From positions 124,001 to 188,000 of the forward strand of contig JANXBW010000005.1 in the NCBI GenBank assembly GCA_025060325.1: a DNA stretch of 64,000 nucleotides, read 5' to 3'. Below, piece by piece: positions 1 to 38,410 of the stretch. The position numbers and the translations under genes are program-made. How positions within the stretch are numbered: position 1 is the first letter of the stretch; each line of letters begins with the position of its first letter. This DNA is from Thermoguttaceae bacterium. GTDB lineage: Bacteria > Planctomycetota > Planctomycetia > Pirellulales > Thermoguttaceae. The notes under the pieces were generated by a model. That model worked only from the letters and a program-made list of their open reading frames with translations. It was not told the origin of the DNA and made no database searches.

Positions 1-1973
1 CCAACGGGTCAAGCCGCTTTGAACATGTTAGGCAAATCCTCAAAGCCCATGCTTCCGCTCTTTCCGCACTAAGTACCGCCTTAGAGGTGCGGGCGTATAC
101 CTTTGGTCGGGAACTGATGCCGATACAGTTGACCAATGGCGAGTCGCTGCTGAGTCATCCTCCAGAACAACCGGAGTCGGCCCTTGCCTGGTCGCTCGAG
201 GAAGCCCTCCGGAGAGAAGCCGGGCGGCGAGTAGTTTCCATCATCTTGTTAACGGATGGAGCCCAGCGGGTGACTGGCACTCGGGATGTACCCGTCCACG
301 GCATTGCCACTCAACTCCAGCAGCAGCAAATCCCGGTTTTGAGCGTCCTCCTAGGGGAACCCCGGGGAATGGGCCGATTCTCGGATATCTCGGTCGATTC
401 ACTCCGGGCTCCAGCAGCTGCGGTTGTAGACGACGAGGTGGTCGTTTCGACAACTATTCATGTGGAAGGGTATCAAGGTCGACAGATTCCCGTGGAGCTA
501 TGGCTCGAAAGCCCGGCGCAGGGCCAACCGTTGTGCTCTGCCACTGTGGATGTCACAAGTGTTAGCCAAGCCTGCGCGGTGCAACTACCCTTCGTGCCAA
601 AAACCCCCGGGGAATTCAAACTTGTTGTCCGGGTGCCGACGCAACCCGGCGAGACAATTGCCCTGAATAACTCACGGGCGACGATTCTTCGAGTAACGAA
701 GGGGCGAGTAAGAGTGCTGATCGTGGATAGCTTTCCCCCGCGACCTGAGCTTGGGTTCTTGCGGCGGGCTTTGACTCTAGGGACTCAGCTGGAAATCGAT
801 ATTTTGACACTTGATCCCAAGGGCATTCCCAGCCAGCTGGGGGCCTTTCACCGTTGTCTGACCGAGCGCGAATACCAGGCTGTCATTCTCGGCAATATCC
901 CCAGCTGGATCGTTGACAAAAACGACTGGGAAATGCTCTGCCGGAAAGTCACGGAGGGAATGGGACTCTTAATGATCGGCGGCATGTGGAGTTTTGGCCC
1001 GGGTGGGTATGCGGACACTCCGCTTGCCGAAATCCTCCCGGTGCGGATGAGTCACCTCGAAATCCAGCGACCTGACGAACCGCCACGAACGGATGTGCAC
1101 ATCCCGGGACCGGTTAAGGTTCGGCCGACTTCTGAAGGAACCTCTCATCCAATGATTGACATCCGTGAGTTAGGGCAGCAAAACCAAATGATTTGGGACC
1201 GGTTGCCTGCGCTAGATGGCGCAAACAAATTCGACTCGCTGAAGCCGGCCGCCCAAGTTTTGTTGGAAACTTCGGAGCGCCAACCTGTGCTCGTCTATCA
1301 ACCGGCCGGCAAAGGTCGAGTAGCTGCCCTTGCTGTTGACTCTACATGGCGCTGGGCGCTGGCCGGGTACCCAGAGTTTTTCCGGCTGTTTTGGCGGACG
1401 ATTGTGACTTTTCTTGCCAACAAAGATCTGGTTCGCGAGGGCCGGGTTTGGATTGACCTTGCCGAGCGCGTCTATCGACCCAATAGTCCAGTTGACTTTT
1501 TCGTGGGACATGACCTGCCGGAGGACAAAGGCCGGCTTGAATTCTCGGCGCAGCTTCAACAAACAAAGCAGATCGTCGCACTTGAGCCACGGAGCGGGGA
1601 AAGAGGTTTTCGGGGCACGGTGCCTTCGCCTACTGCTCCGGGCGATTACACGGTCCTTGTTCAGGTCCGCCAGCAAGATAAGCTTCTTGAGGAAGCCACC
1701 GCCAGATTCCTGGTGGTCGAAGAAGATATTGAACTTGGCAACCCAGCGGCCGATCCCACTTTGCTTCAGTTATTGGCCACCGCGACCGGGGGCGAGGTTG
1801 TTCGGCCCGAAGAGTTCGGCCGTCTGCTAAACCGTCTGTCTCAACAAGCGGCACAGATGGAGGCCACGCTCGAGGTCCGCCAACCACTATGGGATCGCTG
1901 GCCCTGGCTCACCACTGTCCTGTGCCTCGTCAGCCTGGAGTGGTTCTTCCGGCGCCGGTGGGGCCTCGTTTGA
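1..1973 (+). CDS. VWA / glutamine-amidotransferase-like membrane protein, 5' end cut by the window
   Basis: The reading frame is open to the left edge, so the true start lies outside the window; the GTG at 87 is internal. The visible part starts inside a von Willebrand A-like fold (the strand SIILLTDGAQ carries the usual TDG). Next comes a beta-rich stretch, then a class I glutamine-amidotransferase-like fold (VRVLIVDS, then LLMIGGMWSFGPGGYADT) with no obvious catalytic Cys, and a last hydrophobic helix followed by an RRR cluster near the C-terminus. The pattern matches the large BatA-like membrane proteins common in planctomycetes, often next to MoxR-type ATPases, which would lie to the left. 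The likely role is a structural or assembly factor with its bulk outside the membrane. The molecular function is unknown. The family call is fairly secure. Confidence 0.75.
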   Translation, partial: NGSSRFEHVRQILKAHASALSALSTALEVRAYTFGRELMPIQLTNGESLLSHPPEQPESALAWSLEEALRREAGRRVVSIILLTDGAQRVTGTRDVPVHGIATQLQQQQIPVLSVLLGEPRGMGRFSDISVDSLRAPAAAVVDDEVVVSTTIHVEGYQGRQIPVELWLESPAQGQPLCSATVDVTSVSQACAVQLPFVPKTPGEFKLVVRVPTQPGETIALNNSRATILRVTKGRVRVLIVDSFPPRPELGFLRRALTLGTQLEIDILTLDPKGIPSQLGAFHRCLTEREYQAVILGNIPSWIVDKNDWEMLCRKVTEGMGLLMIGGMWSFGPGGYADTPLAEILPVRMSHLEIQRPDEPPRTDVHIPGPVKVRPTSEGTSHPMIDIRELGQQNQMIWDRLPALDGANKFDSLKPAAQVLLETSERQPVLVYQPAGKGRVAALAVDSTWRWALAGYPEFFRLFWRTIVTFLANKDLVREGRVWIDLAERVYRPNSPVDFFVGHDLPEDKGRLEFSAQLQQTKQIVALEPRSGERGFRGTVPSPTAPGDYTVLVQVRQQDKLLEEATARFLVVEEDIELGNPAADPTLLQLLATATGGEVVRPEEFGRLLNRLSQQAAQMEATLEVRQPLWDRWPWLTTVLCLVSLEWFFRRRWGLV

Positions 1974-31516: not shown

Positions 31517-31954
31517 TCACTCGCTTTGATGGTGGTGACCCGAGTCGTCGGCCACCCCTGCCAAGACCAGTTCCCCTTTGTGCACGCCTTTCATGCCTCG
31601 CAGCTCGCTGGCCACCCGTTGCAGTCTCCCGGCTTCGCCGCGAAGGACGAGTACCTCTAAACATAAATCGTGAGACAGATGCACATGGAGCACGGAGACG
31701 ATGAGGTCGGCATGCTGATGCTGAAACTCGAGGAGCCGATCTCGCAATGGGCCGCGATGATGATCGTAAACGAGCGTTAAGGTGCCGACGACAGTCTTCC
31801 CGGTTGTTTCCCAAGCCTCACGGGTCAAAAGCTCGCGAATTGCCTGGCGAATAGCCTCGCTTCGTGTGGCAAAGTGGTGTCGATGACAATAGCGGTCAAA
31901 CTCGCGAAGAAGCTCTGGCTCGACAGATACCGAGAACCTTTGCACACCCGCCAC
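31517..31954 (-). CDS. nikR: Nickel-responsive transcriptional regulator NikR
   Basis: A 145-aa ribbon-helix-helix repressor. The DNA-binding part is residues 1-48 (RFSVSVEPELLREFD). The C-terminal ACT-like part binds nickel through His79, His90, His92 and Cys98, in LHVHLSHDLCLEVLVLRG, which matches the square-planar site known from E. coli NikR (His76, His87, His89, Cys95 there). It represses nickel-uptake genes when nickel is bound. No nickel transporter, urease or hydrogenase gene lies in this window, so its targets are elsewhere. The gene is monocistronic. The His-rich tail (HHHQSE) may add metal affinity. Confidence 0.95.
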   Translation of the reverse strand: MAGVQRFSVSVEPELLREFDRYCHRHHFATRSEAIRQAIRELLTREAWETTGKTVVGTLTLVYDHHRGPLRDRLLEFQHQHADLIVSVLHVHLSHDLCLEVLVLRGEAGRLQRVASELRGMKGVHKGELVLAGVADDSGHHHQSE

Positions 31955-33173: not shown

Positions 33174-35141
33174 ATGGTTACTTTATCTTCTCTTCGCAAA
33201 ACTAAGCTGACACCTGCCGGGAGCCGCTCCCCACTCGTTGCCAGGTATGGGATGTCTTCGTCAAATCTCGTGAACATGATTTTCGCCGTCACCTGTGCGT
33301 GGGTCCTCACAGGTTTTGGGCCACCAAAGCTGGTATTGGCGAATTTGTCCTGGCTAACATTCGGCACCTCCGTCGCAGGGCAAACCTCCAAAATTTCCAG
33401 GCCCGAGGTCGAAACCCCTTCCCAACCGGCCACTAGCGAGCGAGAAGACACTTCAGCCATCCATTCGCTTGTGTTTAATCGCCAATTTGCTCGTATCAGC
33501 CTCATCAAACAAGTCGCAGCGTGTGTCATCTCTGTCTTCTCTCCCTCCGGCGCGGCCGGCGGATCAGGTGTGATCATATCGCCAGACGGGTTTGCGCTTA
33601 CGAATTTTCACGTAGCCAAGCCGTGCGGCATCGCGATGAAATGCGGACTTCCAGATGGACAAATTTACGATGCCATAACGGTGGGGTGGGATCCTGTGGG
33701 CGATATCGCCCTTATTAAGCTGCTAGGGCGGACGGATTTCCCCTACGCCCAATGGGGTGATAGCGACAGCGTGGCCGTGGGAGATGAGGTGTTGGTGATG
33801 GGCAATCCGTTTATGTTGGCCACGGACCTACAACCGACGGTCAGCTGGGGAATCATCTCCGCTCTTAGGCGGTATCAGCATCCGGCCGGCACGCTTTTGG
33901 AGTACGCCGACTGTCTGCAAACGGATGCGTCGATTAACCCGGGCAATTCCGGAGGACCGATGTTCGACTTGAGCGGGCGACTGATCGGAATCAATGGCCG
34001 GGCTTCTTTTGATCGCCGAGGGAGAGTCAATGTGGGACTGGCATATGCCGTGCCAGTTAATCAGATTCGCAACTTCCTGGCCCACCTTCGGGCGGGACGG
34101 ATTGTTGACCATGCTTCGGCAGGGTTTCGCGTCGCCAGTGACCCACAGGGCCGGCCTGTGGTCGTTGACATTCTAGAGACATCGGATGCCTGGCGCCGGG
34201 GAATCCGCGTGGACGATGAGATTATAAGCGTTGCCGGCCGGCCGATCTTGGGGCCAAATGATTTTAAAAACGTCCTCGCTAATTTTCCGCCAGGGTGGCG
34301 GATTCCCTTTGTCTTCCGGCGGGGCCAGGAGGTCCGCCAGGTGTTTGTGCGCTTGGAGCCCCTTCATTCCCCGGGAGAGCTTCTTGAACAATTGGAAAAA
34401 CTGCCGCTCGAAAGTCCTCCAGGCGAGGAACCCCAACCGGAAAAGCCCGCTCCCACCCCGCCTCCTCAGTTGCCCGTAGATCACTTACCCCCGGAAGCTC
34501 AAGCAGTTTACGAAGCAAAAAGGGGATTTGCCAATTTCTATTTCAATCGTCTGGCTCAACAACGACTTTGGTCGGCGTGGGCCGAAAAACAAGGGCTTTC
34601 CCAAGCAAACGGGGAGTGGCAGCTCGAGGGTCGCTGGGATAGTCGCGAGCCGTTTACCGCGACATTGGGGGCAAGGCTTGCTCGGCTTTCTGTAGCTGGC
34701 CAGACCGTTGAATGCTCCGCTGATAAACCGCCCGGCCCGGCCGAGCTTGCCCCGCCGGACCTTCGTGGGCCACTTGTTGGCCTGTGGCTTGTTTGGCAGT
34801 TGGCTACGCAAAGTCTGCAAGCACTTGCGGACTTGTCCTATTGGGGAGCAGAGCCCCACCGCGCTCAAGGACCAATGGCGGAAGTGCTTCAGGCGACGTC
34901 TGGGCCGGCGGAATGCCGCTGGCTCATCCATGAAGGATTGTTGATCGCGGTCGAGCTTCACTACGAGCGGTTTCAGGATCCACTGGAGTTAGTCTTCGAG
35001 GATTTTCGCTCGGTCGACTCGGCCGGCAAAGGGGTTCTTTTCCCCCATCGGATCCTGATTCTCCACGGCGACAACCTACTTGCCCGTTTGGAAGTAACGA
35101 GCTTCGCTGTGAACAACCGAGCAAACAGCGAAAGTCCATGA
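33174..35141 (+). CDS. HtrA/DegP-like serine protease with PDZ domain, intact catalytic triad
   Basis: A 655-aa exported protein. After an N-terminal hydrophobic segment and a linker, a trypsin-like domain starts near residue 114. The triad is complete: His146 (LTNFHVA), Asp177 (GDIALIKL) and Ser259 (NPGNSGGPMF). One PDZ domain follows (about 310-375, DAWRRGIRVDDEIISVAGRP region), then a Pro/Glu-rich linker and a C-terminal domain of about 200 residues that I do not recognise (KRGFANFYFNRLAQQRLW onward). ATG 33174 has GGAGA 8 nt upstream. It is the first of three HtrA-like genes in tandem and the only one likely to cut proteins. The likely role is envelope protein quality control or regulated proteolysis. 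Confidence 0.92.
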   Translation: MVTLSSLRKTKLTPAGSRSPLVARYGMSSSNLVNMIFAVTCAWVLTGFGPPKLVLANLSWLTFGTSVAGQTSKISRPEVETPSQPATSEREDTSAIHSLVFNRQFARISLIKQVAACVISVFSPSGAAGGSGVIISPDGFALTNFHVAKPCGIAMKCGLPDGQIYDAITVGWDPVGDIALIKLLGRTDFPYAQWGDSDSVAVGDEVLVMGNPFMLATDLQPTVSWGIISALRRYQHPAGTLLEYADCLQTDASINPGNSGGPMFDLSGRLIGINGRASFDRRGRVNVGLAYAVPVNQIRNFLAHLRAGRIVDHASAGFRVASDPQGRPVVVDILETSDAWRRGIRVDDEIISVAGRPILGPNDFKNVLANFPPGWRIPFVFRRGQEVRQVFVRLEPLHSPGELLEQLEKLPLESPPGEEPQPEKPAPTPPPQLPVDHLPPEAQAVYEAKRGFANFYFNRLAQQRLWSAWAEKQGLSQANGEWQLEGRWDSREPFTATLGARLARLSVAGQTVECSADKPPGPAELAPPDLRGPLVGLWLVWQLATQSLQALADLSYWGAEPHRAQGPMAEVLQATSGPAECRWLIHEGLLIAVELHYERFQDPLELVFEDFRSVDSAGKGVLFPHRILILHGDNLLARLEVTSFAVNNRANSESP

Positions 35142-35173
35142 CTACTTCCAAAGGTTACTAAGAGGACAACAAG

Positions 35174-36487
35174 GTGTCGAGGCGGGCTGTGTGCAACAAA
35201 GAGACGCGGATCATTTGGCGGGCTCTTTCCCGGGCAAAGTCGACCATGAATTACGCAGAATGGATCGGCCCACTAGGCAACAGTTACCGCATGGCGCCGG
35301 GTCTAGCGGTTGACACGGCGATTACCTCCCTGCCCCGGAAGGGATTTGGCGAGAGCCATTTACATCGGTTTAGCAGGCTCGCCCTAGGTGGTTACCGTGT
35401 TCGCATGGGTGTAAACGTTTACTGCGCGGGTTTATGTTTCGTCGTTGTGGCGCTAGGGTTTCTGTTGACGTCAGTTATTGCGGAGGTCCAGGCGGTATCA
35501 AACACACCTCCGGCCGAAATGGACACGCTCCTTGCAAGCGCTGTGGCAAAAACCGTCAAGATTACGGGGGCGGGCGGTTATCTTGGACTGGAGCCATATC
35601 AATCGGGGATCATTATTTCACCGGACGGGCTTGTGCTCACAGTGTGGAGCCACGTCCTCCTTGAAGGGGATGTCGCGGTCACCCTGTCGGACGGCCGGCG
35701 TTTCCCGGGCGAACTAGTGGGGATTGAACCTTCGCTTGAGCTGGCAGTATTGCGAGTGGACACTTCCACCCCCGAGTGGTTCGACCTGTCAACTAATTCG
35801 GCAGAGATCCGCCCAGGGCAGTGGGTGTTCGCCCTTCATAATGCCTTTGGTGTTGCCGTTGGGCACGAGCCGGTCTCTATCCAGCGGGGGACGGTTGCCG
35901 GCCGGGGACTTTTGGAGGGCAAACGAGGAGGCGCCGGGGCGGCCCTGCGAAGCGAAGTCATTTTCCTCGACTTTGTTACGAGTACCCCTGGTGCCGCTGG
36001 TGGGGCTGTGGTTGATTGCTCCGGCCGCTTAGTAGGAATTATCGGAAAAGCGGTGTTCCATGAGTCCAGTCGGGTTTGGGCAAGTTATGCGATTCCCGCG
36101 GAGCTTTTGGCCAAGGCCCTCCGCGGTGTTCTTGTTAACAAAACGGAAAAGTCCCGAGAGGCTGAAAAGCCGAGTCTTTCGGCAAACCTCCAAGGCCAAG
36201 TGCCCCGTGAAGGGGGCGGCCCCACTCCGGAGAACCTGGGCCTTCGCCTTGTGCCAGTAGTGATGCCGAATATTCCTGCTTTCGTTGACTGGGTTGTCCC
36301 AAATTCTCCCGCGGAAAAAGCGGGACTTCGGCCGGATGACCTCATCGTGACTGTCAACGGCCAGATTGTCCGGACGGTCGGGGACTTTCGCCGGACACTT
36401 CAGGCCCTCGGAGAGCAGGACAAAATTGTGCTGGGCGTAGATCGGAAGGGCCAATTTCTCTACCTAGAGCTTTCTTTAAAAAAGTAG
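35174..36487 (+). CDS. HtrA-like protein without catalytic Asp and Ser (pseudoprotease)
   Basis: A 437-aa HtrA-fold protein with one C-terminal PDZ domain (about 350-435, SPAEKAGLRPDDLIVTVNGQ, split by eye). His160 of the triad is kept (VLTVWSHVLLEG). The Asp position is Glu189 (SLELAVLRV), and the Ser motif reads TPGAAGGAVV, putting Ala275 in place of the nucleophile. It should not hydrolyse peptides. Start uncertain: GTG 35174 has AGGA 7 nt upstream, while ATG 35405 (residue 78 here) begins a better signal peptide (core GLCFVVVALGFLLTS). It starts 32 nt after the active protease gene, so the two are probably one unit. A binding, chaperone or decoy role beside the active paralogue is inferred. 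Confidence 0.88.
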   Translation: MSRRAVCNKETRIIWRALSRAKSTMNYAEWIGPLGNSYRMAPGLAVDTAITSLPRKGFGESHLHRFSRLALGGYRVRMGVNVYCAGLCFVVVALGFLLTSVIAEVQAVSNTPPAEMDTLLASAVAKTVKITGAGGYLGLEPYQSGIIISPDGLVLTVWSHVLLEGDVAVTLSDGRRFPGELVGIEPSLELAVLRVDTSTPEWFDLSTNSAEIRPGQWVFALHNAFGVAVGHEPVSIQRGTVAGRGLLEGKRGGAGAALRSEVIFLDFVTSTPGAAGGAVVDCSGRLVGIIGKAVFHESSRVWASYAIPAELLAKALRGVLVNKTEKSREAEKPSLSANLQGQVPREGGGPTPENLGLRLVPVVMPNIPAFVDWVVPNSPAEKAGLRPDDLIVTVNGQIVRTVGDFRRTLQALGEQDKIVLGVDRKGQFLYLELSLKK

Positions 36488-36787
36488 AGGCGCCGAGGAA
36501 TCAAAGGCCGAGCTGGTACCAATGGCATATCACCTGGGATCGGCGTGCGTGACCGGTGACCGGGAATATTGGCTTGGGTTGCCCTCAACCCTTAGGTCGG
36601 TAGAATCTCAAGCATTTGGCACGCTGGCATACCGCGGGAATCATGAACTGGCTGCGAATGGATTCCGACCGACTTTACACCGACTTTCCATGCATTTCAT
36701 GATCGACCACAAGATTCGGAGGCCTTGGAGTGCCCTAAGTGGCACTTAAGCTCAAGTTGACCAGCCGGCTCCCTCAGTCAACGACTT

Positions 36788-37957
36788 ATGACCAAATCCG
36801 TGAGGCAACCATTGCCAGGTAAAGATTTGCATCCCCGATTTTGTACGCTTGTCGAAATTTCTGGGCTTATTGCGATGCTGGTTTCAGGCAGCTTCGCTGG
36901 GCCAGTGTGCAAAGCCGGCCAAGCGGGCCAGCCACAGGGCGCCCTCGATATCGCTCCTGCACGTTTTGCAGCTCGGCCTACGCCTGATGTTCTTCGACTT
37001 GAGGAAGAGGCCTTCTATCGCGCGGCTACCTCGGCGGCACGATCGGTCGTTAGGTTGGAATGGGTCGGGGGGCGCACCTTGTTAGGGGAAAGGTTGCCGG
37101 GGGGCGCCACAGCGACAGGGCTCCTTGTTGACGAAAGTGGGTTAATCCTGACAAGCACCTATTTTTTCCTAGATAGACCCGATGCCCTCATCGTCCGCTT
37201 CTCGGACGGGAAGGCAAGCCCCGGCAGACTGCTAGGGCGAGACTTCAACCGAATGGTTGCATTGGTGCAGGCCGAGCGAAAGGGTAGCGACCTGCTACCC
37301 ACACGATGCCCCGCGGAAGAGATTGAAGTAGGCATGTGGGCGATTGCCTTAGGCTGGACGATTACCGAGCAACCGCACTTAGCCGTGGGTATTGTTAGTG
37401 CAAAGAGACGGATTTGGGGAAAAGCAATACAGACCGATGCCAACACGAGTCCACATAATTACGGAGGACCTCTTGTTGACATTAACGGGAGGGTCTTGGG
37501 CATAATCGTGCCGTTTTCCCCCGACGGCAGACATCCGATAGCAGGCGTCCATTGGTATGACTCGGGAATCGGTTTCGCAGTACCACTTAGTGATGTACTT
37601 TCCGTCGTACCCCGCCTGGCCAAAGGCGAGGACTTGTTCCCCGGCCGAGCCGGAATCCAATTTGAGCACCCCAATCCCATCTTGGCAGAACCCGTGGTAG
37701 CCGCGGTCGAACCGGGCTCAGCCGCCGATAAAGCCGGCCTGAAACCTGGGGATAGGATCGTGCGAATAGCCGGCAGGGAAGTTCGCCGCGCTGCGGATGT
37801 GGAGGAAGTCTTCCAGCAGCACTACGGCGGAGACACGTTAACCGTGGCAATTGAGCGAGCCGGTCAACGGCAGGATTTTTTGCTAACTCTTGCGCCGGAA
37901 ATCTGGCCCGGGCTTAAAAGCTTGAGGGTTACTTCGGACGCGCCGCCCAGTCCGTAA
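36788..37957 (+). CDS. HtrA-like protein with all three catalytic residues replaced (pseudoprotease)
   Basis: A 389-aa exported HtrA-fold protein with a C-terminal PDZ domain (about 300-375, EPGSAADKAGLKPGDRIV). Alignment by eye with the first tandem copy puts Tyr125 at the His position (ILTSTYFFLD), Met156 at the Asp position (DFNRMVALV) and Tyr225 at the Ser position (SPHNYGGPLVD). The glycines and framework strands (GPLVDINGRVLGI) are kept, so the fold is under selection though the active site is gone. An N-terminal hydrophobic stretch (ISGLIAMLVSGSFAG) suggests export. It is 300 bp after the second copy, on the same strand. Confidence 0.87.
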   Translation: MTKSVRQPLPGKDLHPRFCTLVEISGLIAMLVSGSFAGPVCKAGQAGQPQGALDIAPARFAARPTPDVLRLEEEAFYRAATSAARSVVRLEWVGGRTLLGERLPGGATATGLLVDESGLILTSTYFFLDRPDALIVRFSDGKASPGRLLGRDFNRMVALVQAERKGSDLLPTRCPAEEIEVGMWAIALGWTITEQPHLAVGIVSAKRRIWGKAIQTDANTSPHNYGGPLVDINGRVLGIIVPFSPDGRHPIAGVHWYDSGIGFAVPLSDVLSVVPRLAKGEDLFPGRAGIQFEHPNPILAEPVVAAVEPGSAADKAGLKPGDRIVRIAGREVRRAADVEEVFQQHYGGDTLTVAIERAGQRQDFLLTLAPEIWPGLKSLRVTSDAPPSP

Positions 37958-38065: not shown

Positions 38066-38410
38066 ATGCGCCGGCACCTTATAGGGGTCTTGGGAACCGT
38101 CCTCCTTATCGGGGGAATGTTTCTCACCTGGTTCCCGGCCTCCAATGGAAACACCGAGTCGCTACGAGCTGCCGCCCTCCGCTTGGGGCCCTTCTTGCTT
38201 GTTCTATGGCTTGCTTTCCCGCAGCTTGAACGGTTACCCGAGTGGTTCTTTTGGATCTTGCCAATTTTGATATACCTCCTTGCGTTCCGGCCCAGGTGGT
38301 TTTTCCTCGCCCTCCCCTTTATCCTGGCCGCTGCCATCCTCATGCCGCGGCGCCCTCGAACGACTAAGGCTGCCCCAATCAACCGGCCTCCAAGAGGGGG
38401 AAACTCTTAG
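38066..38410 (+). CDS. Small multi-pass membrane protein of unknown function
   Basis: A 114-aa very hydrophobic protein. The first helix is about residues 5-22 (LIGVLGTVLLIGGMFL). Two or three further hydrophobic segments lie between 40 and 95 (LGPFLLVLWLAF, WFFWILPILIYLLAF, WFFLALPFILAAAIL). A basic, Pro-rich tail (RRPRTTK) probably faces the cytoplasm. I do not recognise a named family, but the Trp/Pro/Leu pattern is like small conserved planctomycete membrane proteins. No clear ribosome site precedes the ATG. It follows the third HtrA-like gene by 108 bp on the same strand and could be co-transcribed. Confidence 0.6.
   Translation: MRRHLIGVLGTVLLIGGMFLTWFPASNGNTESLRAAALRLGPFLLVLWLAFPQLERLPEWFFWILPILIYLLAFRPRWFFLALPFILAAAILMPRRPRTTKAAPINRPPRGGNS

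Follow-up and report, generated by a model that had tools for sequence, protein, structure and literature searches.

Three tandem HtrA-type genes and their domains

The window, i.e., the whole stretch of 64,000 nucleotides that was analysed, contains three consecutive open reading frames (ORFs) of the HtrA type on the forward strand, here called copies 1, 2, and 3, and followed by a gene for a small hydrophobic protein (Table 1). All three pass the Trypsin_2 model, with scores of 104.9, 71.0, and 60.6 bits for copies 1, 2, and 3, respectively, against the Pfam cut-off of 27.6, and their closest solved structures are DegP/DegQ/HtrA proteins. The PDZ domain exceeds the Pfam cut-off in copies 2 and 3; that of copy 1 can be recognised and stays below it, at 21 bits against 27. 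The claim that fold and PDZ domain remain in every copy is thus borne out, the PDZ domain of copy 1 being weak. The N terminus of each of the three proteins has a hydrophobic stretch that would suit export; the ORFs of copies 1 and 2 are over-long at this end and their likely starts, which carry export signals, are the ATG codons given in Table 1.

Table 1. Features of the HtrA gene triplet (positions are those of the window)
Feature	Position	Strand	Remarks
Copy 1, active HtrA	ORF 33174..35141	+	Trypsin_2 33561-33992; weak PDZ 34140-34352; likely start ATG 33252
Copy 1, catalytic codons	H146 33609-33611; D177 33702-33704; S259 33948-33950	+	
Copy 1, C-terminal LolA/LolB-fold domain	34545..35123 (residues ~458-650)	+	AlphaFold2, Foldseek, VIA-align
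Copy 2, pseudo-HtrA	ORF 35174..36487	+	dead protease domain 35603-36040; PDZ 36281-36478; likely start ATG 35405 with signal peptide
Copy 2, triad-site codons	H160 35651-35653; E189 35738-35740; A275 35996-35998	+	
Copy 3, pseudo-HtrA	ORF 36788..37957	+	dead protease domain 37112-37504; PDZ 37652-37885
Copy 3, triad-site codons	Y125 37160-37162; M156 37253-37255; Y225 37460-37462	+	
Small hydrophobic protein after copy 3	38066..38410	+	31 of 95 loci have a member of its family 3' of the cassette

The residues at the triad sites are exactly those of the original prediction, which read H146/D177/S259 in copy 1, H160/E189/A275 in copy 2, and Y125/M156/Y225 in copy 3. Copy 1 therefore has the catalytic His-Asp-Ser (HDS) triad that characterizes the HtrA/Do family, which copies 2 and 3 lack; both of these retain the trypsin fold and the PDZ domain of the family. 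The pairwise identity among the three copies is only 24–28%, so that the duplication is not a recent one. The genome from which the window derives has a size of 4.78 Mb in 89 contigs and contains 13 Trypsin_2 matches; a search for close DNA matches on plasmids gave none. An ORF resembling, by eye, a NikR/CopG-type metal-responsive regulator is located 5' of copy 1 on the opposite strand (31517-31954, -).

Copy 1 is more than a protease with a PDZ domain, since it ends in a LolA/LolB-like domain. The C-terminal 216 residues, folded with orthologues by AlphaFold2, gave a model with a pLDDT of 87, and the best Foldseek matches of this domain were LolB (2.5e-4) and LolA-superfamily entries; VIA-align superimposed it on 3bk5 with a Z of 12.0 over 175 aligned residues (4.0 Å) and on RseB/MucB with a Z of 5–6. 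The domain has the LolA-type half-barrel and, because the sequence identity is near 10%, the fold is all that is claimed. Elsewhere the LolA/LolB-like fold binds lipids or lipoproteins. LolA/LolB and RseB/MucB share this fold with copy 1, in which, unlike in those proteins, it is fused to an active HtrA.

Window copy 3 (389 aa) is modelled as a complete HtrA, with a pLDDT of 80 overall and >90 across most of the domains, and matches Mycobacterium tuberculosis HtrA with a Z of 26.8. In most relatives, copy 3 also carries a second PDZ domain and an alpha/beta-hydrolase-like tail (weak Pfam matches; e.g., L062, L043, and L051), both of which are absent from window copy 3; the tail is also missing from copy 3 of a second genome of the same genus (G001). 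The nucleophile elbow of this tail has a Ser residue in only 2 of 121 relatives, the other 119 being without it, and from its sequence the tail of most relatives is apparently another dead enzyme. A profile comparison between the C-terminal tails of copy 1 and copy 3 returned one short, uninformative match only.

Conservation of triad states, gene order, and joint occurrence

Strong copy 3 matches were found in most of 60 relatives, which span 20 families of the order. Distinct orthologues of each copy were aligned and the triad columns were read. In copy 1 the triad is HDS in all 115 orthologues that could be read, with zero entropy. In copy 2 it is HDS in none of 128; the serine site is occupied by Ala in 106 and by Ser in only 2, and the histidine position is mostly Y, H, P, T, or Q, the column of His160 ranking 202nd of 311 in conservation. 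In copy 3 HDS occurs in none of 152; the serine site holds Tyr in 150 of 151, the histidine site holds Phe or Tyr in 140, and the column of Tyr225 ranks 18th of 301 in conservation. Relatives with the usual catalytic residues in copies 2 or 3, which would have refuted the original prediction, were looked for among the 128 and 152 orthologues and did not appear. Around the dead site of copy 3 the motifs SPxNYGGPL and YDSGIGFA are fixed, and copy 2 has the conserved motifs NNPGAAGGA and GAGG; the conservation as a whole reflects purifying selection on the pseudoproteases, not decay. An alignment error at the triad sites was rejected, as the motif contexts, read directly, agree with the columns.

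The order 1-2-3 on one strand recurs in 138 of 175 loci, a number that includes some genomes shown twice, and most of the remaining loci are cut by contig ends. The active/dead/dead order extends across the class Planctomycetia and to other classes of Planctomycetota (L233-L236, L238-L244, L250, and L251), and distant classes have variant tandems in which one active copy is accompanied by one or two dead copies (L245-L249 and L252). Conservation of the three-gene order and of the substitutions, on which the original prediction could be checked, is therefore found throughout the class and beyond. Among the variants, the dead copy precedes the active one in L245 and L252, and in L246-L249 the active copy is accompanied by one or two dead copies bearing other residues at the triad sites (Asn, Arg, Asp, Gln, Ala, etc.).

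In a tree obtained by a quick maximum-likelihood method, which together with long branches limits finer claims, copies 1, 2, and 3 form separate clades, each with members of several classes (SH-aLRT 99–100); the triplication and the two losses of the triad are therefore older than the split of the classes sampled. The proposed stepwise loss of the triad is not supported, since each dead state is of ancient origin and fixed phylum-wide and the histidine position of copy 2 just drifts. In the window alone the losses do look graded, as if copies 2 and 3 were duplicates degenerating in this one lineage; such a local decay is refuted by the orthologue survey, given states fixed across class and phylum, conserved motifs, separate clades, and intact frames, and its probability is negligible. 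An assembly artefact was rejected on the same conservation over class and phylum.

The three genes were also searched class-wide in 148 genomes, most of the surveyed genomes being metagenome bins, using one model per copy and thresholds chosen by the analyst (1e-100 for copy 1 and 1e-60 for the other two). The identical 107 genomes hold all three genes, nearly always as a single copy each, and the other 41 hold none; this co-occurrence counts genomes and not independent events, and the absences may correspond to few losses (family f21, part of the window's family). In the window's family, 9 genomes were re-tested: 2 have all three genes and 7 have weak copy 3 matches only, without strong matches to copies 1 or 2. 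Two genomes that consist of a single contig (G078 and G182) have the three genes at distant positions, and a third genome (G125) has copy 3 away from copies 1 and 2, all being retained; equal expression from one operon is thus not essential. A second full 1-2-3 set is present in G044 (L091, G044:C12:15000-27000) and each of its members groups in the tree with sequences of other classes, as if the whole cassette had been transferred or the contig misbinned.

The joint retention or loss of all three genes makes it very probable that the two dead enzymes are functional components of the system and not decaying leftovers, and there is little doubt that copies 2 and 3 depend functionally on copy 1, or copy 1 on them, in some way. 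Gene order, triad states, and phyletic pattern, class-wide and beyond, strongly support the view of one active and two dead but functional paralogues, without the stepwise route first proposed for it.

Known systems and the proposed role of the inactive copies

The functional unit of HtrA proteases is a trimer or a multiple of trimers, and these enzymes are textbook homo-oligomers; to our knowledge, few bacterial pseudo-HtrAs have been characterised. With DegP, DegQ, and DegS (Do family) the planctomycete proteins share the trypsin fold and the PDZ domain, and the triad is intact in copy 1; in contrast to these enzymes, two of the three members are dead and copy 1 has a LolA-like domain at its C terminus. 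The NCBIfam model of the Do family, TIGR02037, scores 190.1, 109.5, and 120.5 bits with copies 1, 2, and 3, below its cut-off of 416.2.

The closest precedent is the pair MamE/MamO, in which an active HtrA-type protease and a triad-less HtrA-type partner are encoded in one gene cluster. The dead MamO is needed for proteolysis by MamE, which it activates without catalysis, and has been repurposed for transition-metal binding; physical contact between MamE and MamO was not detected by the authors (PMC4794232). This system consists of two proteins in comparison to three here, and MamO, besides binding metal, has a TauE transporter domain. The window proteins reach at most 125.1/56.3 bits with the MamE/MamO NCBIfam equivalogs, whose cut-off is 800, and no magnetosome genes were found among the flanking genes examined. 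Plant Deg5/Deg8 are Deg paralogues that assemble into hetero-oligomers, in 2016 called the sole such case (PMC4877387); the planctomycete set, a putative hetero-oligomer, differs in the missing triads of copies 2 and 3 and in its organisation as a bacterial three-gene operon. A search of open-access papers that covered HtrA in planctomycetes, pseudoprotease HtrAs, and MoxR together with HtrA or DUF58 found no description of the cassette or of its link to a MoxR operon.

The triplet probably represents an obligate exported HtrA module of Planctomycetota, made of one protease and two pseudoprotease partners. In such a module copy 1 would be the only catalytic subunit; copies 2 and 3 would bind its clients or ligands through the PDZ domain and the pseudo-active site and would control copy 1, most simply by assembly into a shared oligomer, co-assembly being the simplest mode because of the trimeric organisation of HtrA proteases. 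A strict hetero-trimer of copies 1, 2, and 3 is a possible, if somewhat doubtful, form of this assembly.

A different role for the pseudoproteases, as independent PDZ scaffolds or binders of metals, lipids, or peptides which act in the same pathway and never touch copy 1, is rather unlikely; it would agree with the metal binding of MamO and the undetected contact with MamE (PMC4794232), with the dispersed genes in G078 and G182, and with the additional domains (second PDZ and hydrolase-like tail) of copy 3 in most relatives. However, the perfect joint presence or absence in 148 genomes favours a tight dependence, and the model of copy 3 fits trimer-forming HtrAs over both protease and PDZ domains.

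RseB and MucB, which hold back the proteolysis of an anti-sigma factor, have the LolA-like fold found in copy 1 (Z 5–6), and this likeness raises the possibility that the main task of the dead subunits is to restrain copy 1, or to protect substrates from it, pending a releasing signal. The antagonism of MucA-MucB binding by lipids (PMC7400510) is counted in favour of such an inhibitory or decoy role, as is Tyr225 of copy 3, which could fill the pseudo-active site; MamO instead activates its active partner (PMC4794232), and a primarily inhibitory function is the more improbable of the two alternatives.

The MoxR-DUF58-BatA/vWA neighbourhood and a possible role in the cell envelope

The gene directly upstream of copy 1 encodes an NPCBM-domain protein in 71 of 95 loci and is preceded by genes for TPR-like and coiled-coil proteins, names that reflect the analyst's reading of the sequences. 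Farther upstream there are a protein of about 770 aa, a vWA protein, BatA/vWA, DUF58, and a MoxR AAA ATPase; in most relatives this MoxR-DUF58-BatA/vWA operon ends in the HtrA set, and several classes share this arrangement. The MoxR part of the window's genome is located on another contig (L273, G000:C11:112000-131500), where the genes for BatA/vWA, vWA, the 770-aa protein, the coiled-coil protein, the TPR-like protein, and the NPCBM protein are found and no HtrA follows the last of them; the operon is split exactly between NPCBM and copy 1, the triplet staying together.

MoxR ATPases are regarded as chaperone-like maturation factors for dedicated complexes (PMC3893208). MoxR-vWA ternary conflict systems also combine a MoxR ATPase with vWA proteins and some have trypsin effectors (PMC7159879); unlike these, the planctomycete operon contains DUF58, BatA, and an exported HtrA triplet, and the main text of PMC7159879 makes no mention of HtrA or DUF58.

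The HtrA module may serve the cell envelope jointly with the linked MoxR-DUF58-BatA/vWA chaperone operon, and the LolA-like domain of copy 1 may sense or present lipoproteins or lipids. In its most complete form, put forward tentatively, this reading describes an envelope protease machine, i.e., an obligate HtrA hetero-trimer whose single catalytic subunit is joined by two fixed non-catalytic ones, carrying a LolA-like sensor domain and working with the MoxR/BatA chaperone system, in which the extra domain of copy 3 would also be nucleophile-less in most relatives. The envelope of Planctomycetota is unusual and poorly understood, and the cassette offers a handle on its protein quality control; lipoproteins or envelope complexes may be the clients, given that the cassette links an HtrA both with a LolA-like domain and with a chaperone operon of the MoxR-vWA type. 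Moreover, a deeply conserved active/dead/dead set is a natural system in which the role of dead protease subunits can be addressed.

In a genome of another class (L267, G235:C31:5000-22000) this neighbourhood is rearranged and the HtrA genes are located upstream of prenyltransferase-like and MoxR genes. The left end of the window (3-1973, +), 31 kb from the cassette, encodes a protein weakly related (71 bits, 24% identity) to the second vWA protein of the operon.
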